This document shows positions 50,056 through 55,835 of a DNA stretch of 64,000 bases, in pieces. Under the pieces are notes generated by a model. The model saw nothing but the letters and a program-made list of their open reading frames with translations, had not been told where the DNA came from and did not search any database. Source of the stretch: an uncultured Myxococcales bacterium (GTDB taxonomy: Bacteria > Myxococcota_A > UBA9042); NCBI GenBank assembly GCA_903842345.1, contig CAIMLR010000042.1, forward strand, positions 156,857 to 220,856. The letters are read 5' to 3'. The stretch's first letter is position 1. Each line of letters begins with the position of its first letter. Both the position numbers and the translations under genes were made by a program.

Positions 50056-50232
50056 CTAGATCTCGACCATGTCAAAGTCTTCCTTGGCTGAACCACAATC
50101 GGGACAGCACCAGTCGCCGGGGATATCCGCCCAGCGCGTGCCGGGCGCGATACCTTCGTCGGGCAAACCAGCCGCTTCGCTGTACTCAAAACCGCAGACA
50201 ATGCAGCGGAACGTCTTGAAATCATCAGCCAT
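50056..50232 (-). CDS. Rubredoxin
   Basis: 58 residues read directly from the minus strand. The iron site is formed by CIVC (Cys10, Cys13) and CCPDCG (Cys43 and Cys46 as ligands), with [20 protein letters not shown] and DIPGDW in between, the standard rubredoxin plan. It carries one Fe(Cys)4 and passes electrons. Its ATG overlaps the TAA of the rubrerythrin gene by one base (TAATG), and GGAGG lies seven bases upstream inside that gene. It is the probable electron donor of the rubrerythrin for peroxide reduction. Confidence 0.93.
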
Positions 50233-50726
50233 TACTTCACCTCCAAGCCAGCCAGGGCATCGCGGTAATGGCCCGCATGCCGTTCTTCAATCCGCGCCAG
50301 CGCGGCAAAACGCCGCTCGGCCTTCTTCACGATCCCTTGATTCAGGTGCGCGGCAAACGCCTCCGCGTGCTCCTGCGACTCCGCAATCTGCGCGTCGATT
50401 TCCGCCAGCGCCGGCGCATTGCCCTCAGCCTCCGCTTCCCGGCGGAACTGTGGGTACATCTCCGTGTACTCGTGCGTCTCGCCGGCGATCGCCAGCTTCA
50501 GGCACGCGGCGGGAGTCAGCTTCTGCTCGCTGAGCAGCAACTCCAGATGCCCCCACGCGTGCTGCACCTCCTGATCCGCCGTCGCCTCAAAAAGCTTGGC
50601 CGTCGCCTCGTCGCCCGCCTGCCGACAAAGTTTGGCAAAATAGCGGTACTTGATGTGCGCCATCGACTCGCCGGCCAGCGCCGACTCCAAATTCTGCCGC
50701 GTTCGCTGCTGTTGTTCCTGCATCAT
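50232..50726 (-). CDS. Rubrerythrin (lacking its own rubredoxin domain)
   Basis: 164 residues with GGAGGAG before the ATG. The four-helix ferritin-like fold carries the di-iron ligands: Glu20 ([11 protein letters not shown]), Glu53 and His56 (DQEVQH), Glu83 and Glu86 (GETHEY) and Glu119/His120 (ESQEH). Classical rubrerythrin has a C-terminal rubredoxin; here that is a separate gene immediately downstream. The enzyme reduces hydrogen peroxide to water. An OxyR operator lies just upstream of its promoter. Confidence 0.92.
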
Positions 50727-50775
50727 GAACTCCTCCTCCGGGTGTTGTTGCCAGCGTCATGCCGGCGTTGAGAGA

Positions 50776-50804
50776 AGAATAGGTGGCAATTTGCGATAAG
50801 GAAA
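50776..50804 (-). promoter_or_regulatory. Activator-dependent promoter of rubrerythrin-rubredoxin
   Basis: On the minus strand TATTCT (50781-50776, 4/6) is preceded after 17 bases by TTTCCT (50804-50799), a poor -35. A weak -35 with the OxyR site directly abutting it (from 50805) is what an OxyR-activated promoter should look like. Predicted start near 50769, leader about 43 bases. Confidence 0.45.
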
Positions 50805-50841
50805 ATGGATTGTTTCTATGCCGGCGATAGGTCGCGCCTAT
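50805..50841. promoter_or_regulatory. OxyR operator, four half-sites
   Basis: The order is ATGG-7-CTAT-7-ATAG-7-CTAT at 50805, 50816, 50827 and 50838. The OxyR consensus is ATAG-7-CTAT-7-ATAG-7-CTAT, so 15 of 16 core bases match, and the T at the sixth position of both halves is also kept. It overlaps the oxyR stop codon and lies upstream of the rubrerythrin promoter. Confidence 0.7.
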
Positions 50842-51764
50842 GGACGATGTGCCGAGGGCATCCGCCCGCGCACGAGCGCATGGTCCAGGGCTTGTTGCAG
50901 CAATTCCAGCACCTTGGTGCGCGCCGACGCCCGGCGCCACGCCAGCAGGACGCGGCGATGTTGGATCGGCGCCAGCGGTCGCAGCACCAGATGCTGATGG
51001 TCGCCTTGCGACACCGCCGTCGCGGGCAGCACGGTCACGCCCACACCCGCCATCACCATGTGGCGAATCGTCGTCAGCGAGCTGTTGCGCAGCGCGTGGA
51101 CAAGCGCCGAGTCCGTCTGGACCTCCCGGTTCAGGTCCGGGCAGGCTTGGAGCACCTGATCGCGAAAACAGTTGCCGGGCGTCAGCAGCAGCACCGTCTC
51201 GCGCATCAGCATCTCCGGCGTGACGACGTCGACATCCGCCCACGCGTGGCCCAACGGCGCGGCGGCGACCAGCGTTTCCTCGTACAGCGGCTGCGTCGCG
51301 ATCCCGGGCTCGGCGAACGGCTCAGCGACGACGATCGCGTCGAGTTCGCCGTTGTTCAGGCGCTCGACGAGCTGCGCCGTCAGGCCTTCTTGCATCAGCA
51401 GTGGCAAATGCGGCGCGAGCGCCTGGATTTCCGGGACCCAGTGCGGCAGCAGATAGGGACAAATCGTGTAAATGAGTCCGAGGCCAAACGGCACCACCAG
51501 CGGATCCTGGGCGGCCTGCGCGAGCTTGTGCACCTCACCCGCGGCATCCAGCACGCGCTGCGCCTGGGCGACGATCGCGTGGCCAAGCGGCGTCACGGTC
51601 ACCGTCGGCGTGTCGCGGTCAAAGAGCACGACGCCGAGTTCATCCTCCAACTTGCGCACCGCCGCGGACAACGCGGGCTGGCTGACAAAACACGCCTTCG
51701 CCGCGCGACCAAAGTGCCGCTCGTGGGCAACCGTGACGATGTATTTGAGTTCCTGCAGCGTCAT
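50838..51764 (-). CDS. oxyR: OxyR hydrogen-peroxide sensor (LysR family)
   Basis: 308 residues from the ATG at 51764, selected because the LysR start MTLQELKYIVTVA follows and GAGG lies upstream. The helix-turn-helix is at about 18-45 (FGRAAKACFVSQPALSAAV). The sensor domain has Cys199 in TPGNCFRD and Cys208 nine residues later, the two redox cysteines of E. coli OxyR at identical numbers and spacing. Oxidation by peroxide forms their disulfide and changes DNA binding. Its own operator-like site is at its 3' end, in front of rubrerythrin, so this is a compact sensor-effector module. Confidence 0.93.
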   Translation of the reverse strand: MTLQELKYIVTVAHERHFGRAAKACFVSQPALSAAVRKLEDELGVVLFDRDTPTVTVTPLGHAIVAQAQRVLDAAGEVHKLAQAAQDPLVVPFGLGLIYTICPYLLPHWVPEIQALAPHLPLLMQEGLTAQLVERLNNGELDAIVVAEPFAEPGIATQPLYEETLVAAAPLGHAWADVDVVTPEMLMRETVLLLTPGNCFRDQVLQACPDLNREVQTDSALVHALRNSSLTTIRHMVMAGVGVTVLPATAVSQGDHQHLVLRPLAPIQHRRVLLAWRRASARTKVLELLQQALDHALVRGRMPSAHRP

Positions 51765-51836
51765 CTCGACCTCACTCGGCAAGGTCGACGGCGGCGCTGA
51801 AGTTGTCAAGGACCGCGGCGGGCGCGTCGCGAATTC

Positions 51837-51923: not shown

Positions 51924-52406
51924 ATGCCCAGGCGCTTTCCGTCCGATACGAAGCACAAACCGGGCGCCGCGTCGGCCGCGGAACCGCTGATTGACGCGGA
52001 AGAGACGACGCACCGCTATTCCAGCCATGCGCTGGCTGAGATCCGCTCCGCCATCGCGCAGGCGCAAGCCGGGGCGGAGACCGCCGCGCCCGTTGCGGCG
52101 CCCTCGGGGCGAATGCCATCTGAGGCGGTACCCAGTTGGTCGCCTGAACTGCCGCCAATGGCCGCAACGGAAGCGCCCGGTACGACGGAAGTCACGCAGC
52201 GCTATGCGGATCGCAGCGTTGCGGGCATTCGCGCCGCGATTGCAGCCGCGCGCGAAGCGGAAGCCGGAGCGCCCACGGCGCGTGCCGCCGCGCGTTTTGC
52301 CGCCGACGAGGCGCCGGTCGTGAAAGTGCCATCCATGATTCTGGACCCGCGAACCGGAACCTTGCCGGAAGACGCCGATCGCGACGACAAGCCGGGGCCG
52401 GAATGA
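51924..52406 (+). CDS. Small protein with two T-x-R-Y repeats, first gene of a kinase operon
   Basis: 160 residues, no recognised family, no signal peptide. Two repeats 62 residues apart share T-x-R-Y-x5-A-x-I-R-x-A-I-A-x-A: residues 29-47 (THRYSSHALAEIRSAIAQA) and 91-109 (TQRYADRSVAGIRAAIAAA). Each is preceded by Glu/Thr-rich residues (EETT, TTEV) and separated by Pro/Ser/Glu-rich disordered linker. The stop overlaps the start of the kinase gene by ATGA, so the two are translated together. I infer a partner or substrate of the kinase, with the Thr near each repeat as possible phosphosites; nothing proves this. Confidence 0.72.
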   Translation: MPRRFPSDTKHKPGAASAAEPLIDAEETTHRYSSHALAEIRSAIAQAQAGAETAAPVAAPSGRMPSEAVPSWSPELPPMAATEAPGTTEVTQRYADRSVAGIRAAIAAAREAEAGAPTARAAARFAADEAPVVKVPSMILDPRTGTLPEDADRDDKPGPE

Positions 52407-53878
52407 AGCAGTGTCCCGTGTGCCAAGCCACCTATCCGGACGAGCAGCGGTATTGCGGCCAGGACGGCAACGTTCTCGTCGATTTTGAACCCGTCGATCC
52501 CCTGATCGGCGTCGTCGTCGGCGGCAGCTACCGCCTGCGCAAGCACCTCGGCACGGGCGGTTTTGGCACGGTCTACCTCGCGACGCATGAACGCCTGCCG
52601 ATGATGGTCGCGGTCAAGCTGCTCAATCCCGGGCGCACGGTCGACCCGTCCATGGTCTCGCGTTTCCGGCTGGAAGTGGAAGCTGAGGCGCTGCTGACGC
52701 ACCCGAACATCGTGCGCGTTCTCGATCACGGCCAGGATCCCGTTGCCGGGTTCTTCATCGTCATGGAGCACCTGAACGGCCGCGATCTGGCCAAGTTGCT
52801 CGACGCCAAGCAACACCTTGGCGTGCTTGAAATCTTCGCGCTCGTGGAGCAAACGGCGTCCGCGCTCGACGCCGCGCACAAGGCCGGCATCGTGCACCGC
52901 GACGTCAAAGCCGAGAACCTGTTCCTCGTCGATGATCGCACGCGGCCCGAAGGCTTCCTGCTCAAGGTGCTCGATTTTGGCCTCGCCAAGCTCACGCGCA
53001 ACGCCGTGACGCCGCACGGCCAGACGGTGCGGGCGCTTGCCCACCGCAGCAGCGCACAGCGGACTTTTGGCAGCCCGGCGACGATGGCGCCTGAAGTCGC
53101 GACGGCCGGCCACATCGATCACCGCGCCGACATCTACAGCCTGGGCGCGGTCGTGTTTGAGCTGCTGACCGGCCACATCCTGTTTGAGGCCAAGACGCTG
53201 GACGAGATGTTGTTCAGCATCGTCAACAAGCCCGCGGTCGTACCGTCGGTGATGCAGGGCGGGGAGTGGGTGCCGGCGGCGCTTGACGAAGTCGTGCTGT
53301 CGATGCTGCAGAAGAACCCGCTGAACCGGCCGCAAACGATGGCGGAAGTGCGGCGACTGTTTGAGAAAGCGCGGCCTGAGGCGGAAATCGCGTGGTCGGA
53401 ATGGTTCCTGCCGGGAGGGCTGGCTGGCACGGCCTCGCCGCGGCGGCGGGTGTCGGCGACCGCGCTGGGGCAGCCCGTGCAAGTGACGGTGCGACGCGAG
53501 CGGCCGCTGGTGCTGACGATCGACGACGACCGCGTGATGCGCGGGCTGGTGCGGACGCTCGTGGTGTCGACCGGCTGCGACTGCGAGGCGCTCGAAAGCG
53601 GGGAAGCGGCGCTGGACTGGCTGCGGCGCAACCCGCCGCCGGATGCGCTGATCTGCGACGTGCTGATGCCCGGCATGGACGGCCTGACGCTCGTCGACAC
53701 GGCGCGCGCCAACGGTTTTCAGGGGCCGGTGGTCTTCTGTTCCAGCGTCGTTTCAGCCCGGCTACGCCTGGAGACGGCCGGGATGGGCCGCGCGTGGTGC
53801 TTGGACAAGGCCATGGAAATGCACAAAATTCCTGAAACTTTGCGGATCGCCGGTGTAGCGCCGCCATCCGGAGCGTGA
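52403..53878 (+). CDS. Ser/Thr protein kinase with N-terminal zinc ribbon and C-terminal receiver domain
   Basis: 491 residues. A zinc-ribbon-like start has CPVC (4-7) and Cys18 followed by DGNVL. The Hanks-type kinase domain is complete: glycine loop GTGGFGTV (50-57), AVK Lys72, HRDVKAEN (165-172), DFG (191-193) and MAPE (228-231). After a short linker, a response-regulator receiver occupies about 367-485 with acidic Asp374/375, phospho-acceptor Asp419 in CDVLMPGMDG and Lys469. A Ser/Thr kinase ending in a receiver is a rare fusion that could be switched by a histidine kinase. The next gene encodes such a kinase with Hpt, 4 bp away. Confidence 0.92.
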   Translation: MKQCPVCQATYPDEQRYCGQDGNVLVDFEPVDPLIGVVVGGSYRLRKHLGTGGFGTVYLATHERLPMMVAVKLLNPGRTVDPSMVSRFRLEVEAEALLTHPNIVRVLDHGQDPVAGFFIVMEHLNGRDLAKLLDAKQHLGVLEIFALVEQTASALDAAHKAGIVHRDVKAENLFLVDDRTRPEGFLLKVLDFGLAKLTRNAVTPHGQTVRALAHRSSAQRTFGSPATMAPEVATAGHIDHRADIYSLGAVVFELLTGHILFEAKTLDEMLFSIVNKPAVVPSVMQGGEWVPAALDEVVLSMLQKNPLNRPQTMAEVRRLFEKARPEAEIAWSEWFLPGGLAGTASPRRRVSATALGQPVQVTVRRERPLVLTIDDDRVMRGLVRTLVVSTGCDCEALESGEAALDWLRRNPPPDALICDVLMPGMDGLTLVDTARANGFQGPVVFCSSVVSARLRLETAGMGRAWCLDKAMEMHKIPETLRIAGVAPPSGA

Positions 53879-53882
53879 AGCG

Positions 53883-55835
53883 ATGGCGCAGACGCAGCGG
53901 CGGTGGATTCCCGAGGCGATTTGGCGCAAGTTGCCCCTGCTGTTCGCCGTCGCCTATGGCGCGGGCTTCAAGCTGCTCTACCGCACGCTGGGTCCGGGGA
54001 CCGAGAGCCTGGCGACCGTTGTCGTGCTGCTGGCGGCCAGTCAGGGCGGCCTGCTCGCCGGCTTGGGCGTCGCCGCGGCTTGCGTGGCGCTGCACACGGT
54101 CGTCGGTTCGCTCCAGCTCGGGATTCCCTGGTCCGCGTGGCTGCAAGGCGGTCAGCTTGCCACCGCGATGGGACTGCTGCTTGTCGGCGCCGTCGTTGGC
54201 CGGCTGCGCGACTTGCGCGTGCAGTTGGACGCGGAGATCGCGGCGCGCAAGGACTCGGAAATCCAGCTGCGCGCCGCCCAGGAAGTCGCAGAGACCGCCA
54301 ATCGCGCCAAGGGCGAATTCCTCGCGCGCATGAGCCACGAAATTCGCACGCCGATGCATGGCGTGCTGGGCGTGACGCAAGTACTGTTGGAGACGCCACT
54401 GTCACCAGATCAACGGCAATACGTTGACATGATTCAGGGATCTGGCGAACTGCTGCTGGCGATCATCAACGACATCCTCGATTTTTCCAAGATTGAAGCC
54501 GGCAAGATGGAGCTGGAGGAAAGCGAGTTTGAGCTGCTCCCGGTGCTCCGCGAGTCGCTCGAGCTGGTGGCGATGACGGCGCGGCAAAAAGGCCTGGAAG
54601 TCGCGCTTGACGTGCCCGCGGAGTTGCCGCCGTGGCTGGTGGGCGACGCCGTGCGGCTGCGGCAGGTCCTCATCAACCTGCTGGGCAACGCGACCAAGTT
54701 CACGGAGCGCGGGAGCATCGTCCTGCGGGCGCGGACTGCGGCGGGGACGCCGGGCCACGTGCGGCTGCGCCTGGAAGTGCAGGATACCGGTATCGGCATT
54801 GAGCCGGCGATCCTCGGCAAGGCGTTCGAGCCGTTCACGCAAGCCGACGCCTCCACGACGCGGGTCTATGGCGGGACCGGGCTGGGACTGGCGATCAGCA
54901 GCCAGCTCGTCGCGCTGATGGGCGGGCGTCTACAGTGCCAGAGCGAGCCGGAGCGCGGCAGCACGTTCTTCTTTGAGGTTGAACTGGCGGTACCCGAGGC
55001 CGCGCCGCTCAACAACGCGCCGCCTTCGAACCTGCCGCCGACGGAAACAGTGGCCGGGCGCGTGTTGGTGGCCGAGGACAACCGCATCAATCAGGTCATC
55101 ACGACGCGGCTGCTGGAAACGCTGGGCGTGAGCGTCGATGTGGTCGCGGACGGCGCGGCGGCGGTGCTGGCGGTGCAGCGCACGCACTACGACGTCGTGC
55201 TGCTGGATTGCCAGATGCCCGTGCTGGACGGCTACGCTGCGGCGGCACAGATTCGCGCGGCGGAGGCGCCGGGGCGGCACTTGCCGATGCTGGCGTTGAC
55301 GGCGTCCGTCCTGGCGGAGGACCACGAGCGGGCGCGCGCGGCGGGCGTGGACGCCGTGCTCGTCAAGCCGCTGCGGGCCGATGACCTGCGTCAAGCGGTG
55401 CTGCGCTACCTGCCGCGGGTGCGGCGCATCAGCCAGGCGATCCAGCTGCCGATTCCGTCGACGGAACTGCCCGTGCTGGAAGTGGCCACGTTGGCGGACC
55501 TGAAGCGCGCTGGCGGCTTGCAGACCGTGCATGCCGTCGTGGCGATCTTTGCGGAGGCGGCCGCGCAAACGCGCGCGGAGCTGGGGGCGGCGTCGCGCGA
55601 TCGGGAGGCGCTGGCGCTGCTGGCCCACCGCCAGCGCGGGACCGCGGCCTGTGTCGGCGCGCGGCGGCTGGCGGCGAGCCTCTCGCAGCTGGAGACCATC
55701 GCGCGGTCGGCGACGGATGGGGAAATCGACGCCGCGCTGACCCGCGTGGACCGCGAAACGGAAGCGGCGCTGCGGGTGCTGGCGCGCTACCGGAACGCGG
55801 ATTCAGCGGCCTTTGTCGCCAGCCCGGTACACTGA
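53883..55835 (+). CDS. Hybrid sensor histidine kinase with receiver and Hpt domains
   Basis: 650 residues. Three to four membrane helices lie in the first 108 residues with no large periplasmic loop, so sensing is probably within the membrane. A coiled helix (109-145) leads to the HisKA domain with His152 in MSHEIRTP and a HATPase with N-box LLGNATKF, DTGIGI and GTGLGL. A receiver follows (about 393-510, Asp442 in DCQMPVLDG), then an Hpt-like domain with His582 in AHRQRGTAACVGA. The usual Lys of the Hpt motif (HxLKG) is Arg here. The chain His-Asp-His is complete, so phosphate could flow on to another receiver, for instance that of the adjacent Ser/Thr kinase. Confidence 0.92.
   Translation: MAQTQRRWIPEAIWRKLPLLFAVAYGAGFKLLYRTLGPGTESLATVVVLLAASQGGLLAGLGVAAACVALHTVVGSLQLGIPWSAWLQGGQLATAMGLLLVGAVVGRLRDLRVQLDAEIAARKDSEIQLRAAQEVAETANRAKGEFLARMSHEIRTPMHGVLGVTQVLLETPLSPDQRQYVDMIQGSGELLLAIINDILDFSKIEAGKMELEESEFELLPVLRESLELVAMTARQKGLEVALDVPAELPPWLVGDAVRLRQVLINLLGNATKFTERGSIVLRARTAAGTPGHVRLRLEVQDTGIGIEPAILGKAFEPFTQADASTTRVYGGTGLGLAISSQLVALMGGRLQCQSEPERGSTFFFEVELAVPEAAPLNNAPPSNLPPTETVAGRVLVAEDNRINQVITTRLLETLGVSVDVVADGAAAVLAVQRTHYDVVLLDCQMPVLDGYAAAAQIRAAEAPGRHLPMLALTASVLAEDHERARAAGVDAVLVKPLRADDLRQAVLRYLPRVRRISQAIQLPIPSTELPVLEVATLADLKRAGGLQTVHAVVAIFAEAAAQTRAELGAASRDREALALLAHRQRGTAACVGARRLAASLSQLETIARSATDGEIDAALTRVDRETEAALRVLARYRNADSAAFVASPVH

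Follow-up and report, generated by a model that had tools for sequence, protein, structure and literature searches.

A Ser/Thr kinase with its own receiver domain, encoded beside a tripartite hybrid histidine kinase in Myxococcota: a candidate operon-borne phosphorelay

In Pseudomonas aeruginosa, the receiver of HsbR takes phosphate from HptB, and HsbR in turn controls the phosphorylation of HsbA at Ser56 (PMC6482189), so that control of O-phosphorylation by a phosphorelay is already known. Histidine kinases and response regulators are also among the known substrates of bacterial Ser/Thr kinases (reviewed in PMC12189002). In Myxococcus xanthus the Ser/Thr kinase PktA5 and the hybrid kinase EspA may interact; PktA5 appears to act in a complex with EspB and another Pkt kinase, itself a possible partner of EspA (PMC4320627). 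Links of this kind between bacterial two-component systems and Ser/Thr kinases are usually cases of cross-phosphorylation found after the fact. Here, a locus is described in which the link looks hard-wired. It lies in a stretch of 64,000 nucleotides (the window; contig CAIMLR010000042.1, positions 156,857 to 220,856) from an uncultured Myxococcales bacterium, in which three co-directional genes of the + strand (51924-55835) encode ORF1, a Hanks-type Ser/Thr protein kinase with a C-terminal receiver (STPK-REC) and a hybrid histidine kinase (HHK) with a histidine phosphotransfer (Hpt) domain. With a probability of about 0.7, the operon is read as a dedicated ArcB-like multistep phosphorelay in which STPK-REC is the terminal response regulator, and a two-component signal would probably turn its Ser/Thr kinase on or off.

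The coordinates of the open reading frames confirmed the three-gene set given in a preliminary description of this DNA, with a 4-nt ATGA overlap at the junction between ORF1 and STPK-REC and a gap of 4 bp from the stop codon of STPK-REC to the start of HHK. The key residues named there, Asp419 and Lys469 of STPK-REC and His152, Asp442 and His582 of HHK, were each found exactly at the position claimed. The features of the two kinase genes are as follows.

52403..53878, + strand: STPK-REC, Ser/Thr kinase with C-terminal receiver, 491 aa (Pfam)
52412..52465, + strand: zinc-ribbon-like N-terminus of STPK-REC (C4, C7, C18, D21), from sequence and conserved in the alignment; Pfam Zn_Ribbon_1 at E=0.14 only
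52529..53341, + strand: Hanks-type kinase domain (Pfam PF00069, residues 43-313, 148.4 bits)
53510..53842, + strand: receiver of STPK-REC, with D374/D375, D419, S447 and K469 (Pfam PF00072, residues 370-480, 63.3 bits)
53657..53659, + strand: Asp419, predicted phospho-acceptor of this receiver (alignment)
53883..55835, + strand: HHK, membrane N-terminus followed by HisKA-HATPase-REC-Hpt, 650 aa (Pfam, hydropathy scan)
53925..54206, + strand: probable membrane-spanning sensor region of HHK (hydropathy scan; lower limit set by eye)
54336..54338, + strand: His152, autophosphorylation site in SHEIRTP (alignment)
55062..55400, + strand: internal receiver of HHK with Asp442, codon 55206-55208 (Pfam, 76 bits; Asp442 invariant)
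55539..55751, + strand: Hpt domain of HHK with His582, codon 55626-55628 (Pfam, alignment, predicted fold)

The pair formed by STPK-REC and HHK was followed in a family sample of 22 genomes; the named relatives are assemblies from metagenomes, under the labels Myxococcales, Deltaproteobacteria, Proteobacteria or Polyangia. HHK directly followed STPK-REC in 11/11 genomes with a readable junction, belonging to five genera: G000 (the genome of the window) to G004, all of its own genus, G006, G014-G017 and G021. Contig ends fall inside HHK in G015 and G016, and the rest of the G016 gene was located at the end of another contig. The recurrence of the gene order, which the preliminary description had proposed to search for, was thus found in the relatives. 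Flanking genes were common to close relatives only; between the genera g1 (its own), g7 and g8/g10 just the pair was shared, in three different flanking contexts, and general synteny was therefore rejected as the cause of conservation. The same data bear on the possibility that the genes are merely co-regulated neighbours, acting in one response with no exchange of phosphate. Some paralogues of STPK-REC have no histidine kinase nearby, as would be expected in that case, but the constant adjacency of the pair among differing flanks, and the fact that each partner has exactly the domain that the other requires, make it very unlikely.

A Pfam search of the window's genome detected around 56 Pkinase, 60 receiver and 11 Hpt matches. 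By matching domain positions, just two fusions of the STPK-REC type were found among them, and this one alone stands beside an Hpt protein, which argues that the arrangement is not due to chance. Within the operon, the only receiver outside HHK is that of STPK-REC.

STPK-REC has the kinase fold, the invariant Lys, the HRD Asp and the DFG of a Hanks-type Ser/Thr protein kinase. VAVK72, HRD165-167, DFG191-193 and P230-E231 are all present and invariant in close orthologues; more distant paralogues differ at the HRD Arg, whereas Asp167 and Asp191 are constant. The nearest solved kinases, both by sequence and by fold of the predicted model, were PknB and StkP. Its C-terminal domain combines the acidic pair, phospho-acceptor Asp, Ser/Thr and Lys of a response regulator with fusion to an effector. 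The acidic pair, Asp419 and Lys469 were kept in 22/22 related STPK-RECs aligned, and position 447 was Ser or Thr in the operon copies. As D374, D375, D419 and K469 were invariant even among STPK-RECs of 34-53% identity, the receiver seems to have been kept phosphorylatable, and a dead kinase or a degenerate receiver could be ruled out by these intact and conserved residues.

This conservation also bears on a reverse flow of the signal, in which STPK-REC would phosphorylate HHK on Ser/Thr and so tune it, the fused receiver serving for docking or dimerization. There is precedent for such cross-phosphorylation (PMC12189002), and co-transcription suits either direction; however, a receiver used for docking only should let Asp419 and Lys469 drift, and both are invariant in distant paralogues, so this explanation is regarded as rather improbable.

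Three further assignments were tried for STPK-REC and rejected. It is not a PknB/Stk1 PASTA kinase, as it scored 222 bits against an equivalog cut-off of 450, through the kinase part only, and no PASTA match was obtained. An HsbR-type regulator (REC-PP2C-GHKL) was discarded because Pfam detected no PP2C or GHKL domain in the protein, just the Hanks kinase and the receiver. Finally, a Ser/Thr-His kinase fusion of the HstK type was ruled out because the two kinases are here on separate genes.

HHK shows the domain order and the His, Asp and His acceptors of a tripartite hybrid histidine kinase of the ArcB/BarA type, with hydrophobic stretches at residues 41-82 and 87-108 in the hydropathy scan. 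His152, Asp442 and His582 were invariant in 10 aligned HHKs that are 41-79% identical to that of the window. Membership of the TorS, BarA or ArcB families was rejected on the NCBIfam equivalog cut-offs (418.4 against 676.5 for TorS, 389.5 against 890 for BarA, and 319.4 against 838 for ArcB). The Hpt domain scored 22.5 bits with the protein against a Pfam cut-off of 24.6, and 27.7 bits in the genome search; those of orthologues reached 28.1 and 51.8 bits. A structural model of residues 525-650 had five helices and a mean predicted local distance difference test score (pLDDT) of 85.5, and its best PDB matches were Hpt proteins, including P. aeruginosa HptB and the Hpt domain of ArcB (probability 1.00, template modelling score ~0.66-0.76, with modest E-values of 0.003 to 0.02). 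A spurious Hpt was therefore rejected. In the HHK orthologues of genus g8 (L059:7391-9922 and L064:1119-3647), the ATPase and the receiver are separated by ~150 additional residues, which may represent a second, degenerate receiver.

In the proposed relay, HHK would autophosphorylate at His152 of the membrane sensor, and the phosphate would pass to Asp442 of its own receiver, from there to His582 of its Hpt domain, and from His582 to Asp419 in the receiver that STPK-REC carries behind its kinase domain. Phosphorylation of Asp419 would alter this receiver, most likely in its self-association or in how it touches the kinase domain over a flexible linker; the altered receiver would switch the Ser/Thr phosphorylation of targets. 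In the structure model, residues 346-360 of this linker are predicted to be disordered, which would favour self-association of the receiver or loose docking over a rigid coupling. PknB-type kinases are commonly activated by dimerization followed by trans-phosphorylation, and a phosphorylation-dependent dimer of the receiver would therefore be the most plausible switch.

Paralogous arrangements also bear on this route. In G004, a paralogous operon (L072:5707-10097, C178) encodes a CHASE2 histidine kinase, an STPK-REC, a free Hpt protein of 121 aa and a free receiver of 128 aa; its histidine kinase has no receiver of its own, and the separate receiver and Hpt are encoded alongside. With all the parts on separate genes, this operon gives independent support to a relay. 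A different arrangement was found in G365, a genome outside the family, in which an STPK-REC is divergent to a PAS histidine kinase (L203:6659-10095, C24) with no Pfam match to a receiver or an Hpt, possibly a plain two-component pair whose output is a kinase. Two-component genes are found close to another STPK-REC of G365 (L204).

The G365 pair is an argument for a direct transfer from His152 of HHK to the receiver of STPK-REC, as it suggests that transfer from HisKA to receiver may suffice in this kinase family. The receiver-Hpt branch of HHK would then serve another response regulator, of which the genome offers many candidates among its other receivers, or be a phosphate sink. Nevertheless, the Hpt is kept in every operon-type copy of HHK long enough to read, and the receiver-less histidine kinase of G004 is accompanied by precisely the separate receiver and Hpt that a multistep relay needs, so direct transfer is considered unlikely. 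The multistep route from His152 through Asp442 and His582 to Asp419, as first put forward in the preliminary description, is thus supported by four residues that are invariant wherever they can be read, by the presence of the pair in five genera and by the split-gene relative; within it, transfer to Asp419 and control of kinase activity are predictions.

Several observations weigh against a dedicated relay. As the genome has dozens of receivers and 10 Hpt matches besides this one, cross-wiring is possible, and the Hpt of the window's own HHK is slightly below the Pfam cut-off. The predicted disorder of the linker makes an allosteric contact unreadable from the model. Moreover, the second STPK-REC of the window's genome (L073:6009-7718, G000:C30), whose HRD motif reads HCD and which has another Ser/Thr kinase close by, has no histidine kinase within the 13 kb read; neither do the C30 orthologues and several other STPK-REC paralogues in the stretches read, in some cases because the contig ends. 

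Two other combinations of these kinases were observed. A Polyangia assembly encodes a fusion of a Ser/Thr kinase, a GAF domain and a histidine kinase beside an STPK-REC (L090:2767-7461). In the window's genome, the gene for a plain Ser/Thr kinase lies ~1 kb from that for a hybrid histidine kinase, in the same orientation (L206:2217-7175, G000:C28).

The first gene of the operon has the following features.

51924..52406, + strand: ORF1, 160 aa, first operon gene in its own genus and one sister genus
51996..52073, + strand: ORF1 repeat unit a (AEETTHRYSSHALAEIRSAIAQAQAG), duplicated motif
52182..52259, + strand: ORF1 repeat unit b (TTEVTQRYADRSVAGIRAAIAAAREA), duplicated motif

ORF1 had no Pfam or NCBIfam match. 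Relatives of 56-63% identity were found. The gene was confined to its own genus (G001-G004) and, weakly, to G006, always upstream of the kinase, and no further ORF1-like proteins were detected in the loci fetched. The duplicated motif consists of E-[TSV]-T-x-R-Y followed by a helix-like IRxAIAxA. Every ORF1 homologue contained it twice, and it was absent from the rest of the loci fetched. As the Thr, Ser and Tyr of the motif adjoin acidic residues, ORF1 might be a substrate of the kinase in the window's genus, or else an adaptor, which is a guess from its sequence. In a wider and more doubtful proposal, receiver-bearing Hanks-type kinases would make up a class of "kinase response regulators" in the family, with His-Asp phosphorelays as their main input and ORF1, with its duplicated Thr/Tyr motifs, as a dedicated substrate in one branch.

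Divergent to the operon lie a gene for a LysR-type, OxyR-like regulator and a rubrerythrin-like gene (50232-51770, - strand), which occupy the same place in the congeners G002, G003 and G004 and were absent from the stretch read for G001. A promoter region common to the operon and these oxidative-stress genes is possible.

The frequency of the fusion was assessed with a profile built on it (A3) at a strict threshold, with four candidates scored per genome in 379 genomes of the phylum. Matches over the threshold were obtained in 17/379 genomes, those of G208 and G336, outside the family, and of G010, within it, being to the kinase part only. The fusion itself was seen in about 14 genomes, in this family and in G365 (counted from 14 family genomes, with G010 kinase-only and G011 cut by a contig end, plus G365). 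A general family of phylum-wide distribution was therefore rejected, within the reach of a profile that would miss STPK-RECs of independent origin. In the open-licence literature no description was found of a bacterial Hanks kinase-receiver fed by an Hpt, which is weak evidence of absence. The coupling had been called uncommon, with the caveat that relay control of Ser phosphorylation as such is known from HptB-HsbR-HsbA, though there with a GHKL and not a Hanks kinase.

If the proposed relay is correct, the Ser/Thr kinase is itself the response regulator, and the pair would be a compact two-protein system for direct tests of how a phospho-receiver controls a Hanks kinase. It would also suggest a signal route for myxobacterial Ser/Thr kinases, whose inputs are mostly unknown.

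In comparison with described systems, the proposed path resembles that of HptB-HsbR-HsbA, leading from hybrid kinase through Hpt to the receiver of a protein that governs phosphorylation of a substrate. However, HsbR joins its receiver to a PP2C phosphatase and a GHKL kinase/anti-sigma domain, whereas the window's protein is a Hanks kinase with no phosphatase encoded, and HptB is a separate protein serving several hybrid kinases, whereas in HHK the Hpt belongs to the sensor itself. HHK shares with ArcB, BarA and TorS the HisKA-HATPase-REC-Hpt order in a membrane protein, and TorS, BarA, LuxQ and ArcB were its best NCBIfam matches, but it scores far under their equivalog cut-offs and its partner is a kinase instead of a DNA-binding regulator. 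STPK-REC is closest to the PknB/StkP group among solved kinases and has the full set of catalytic motifs, but it lacks a PASTA sensor and has instead a C-terminal receiver and an N-terminal zinc-ribbon-like motif. Rim15-type kinases are eukaryotic, are not known to be encoded beside a hybrid kinase and have a different receiver. The likeness to these fungal proteins is a receiver domain associated with a Ser/Thr kinase (PMC8510515). The EspA/EspC system with PktA5 in M. xanthus likewise brings a hybrid histidine kinase and Ser/Thr kinases into one pathway, but no transfer from an Hpt to a kinase receiver is described there (PMC4320627). What sets the present locus apart from these precedents appears to be the union of a Hanks kinase that has its own receiver with a tripartite sensor in one conserved operon.

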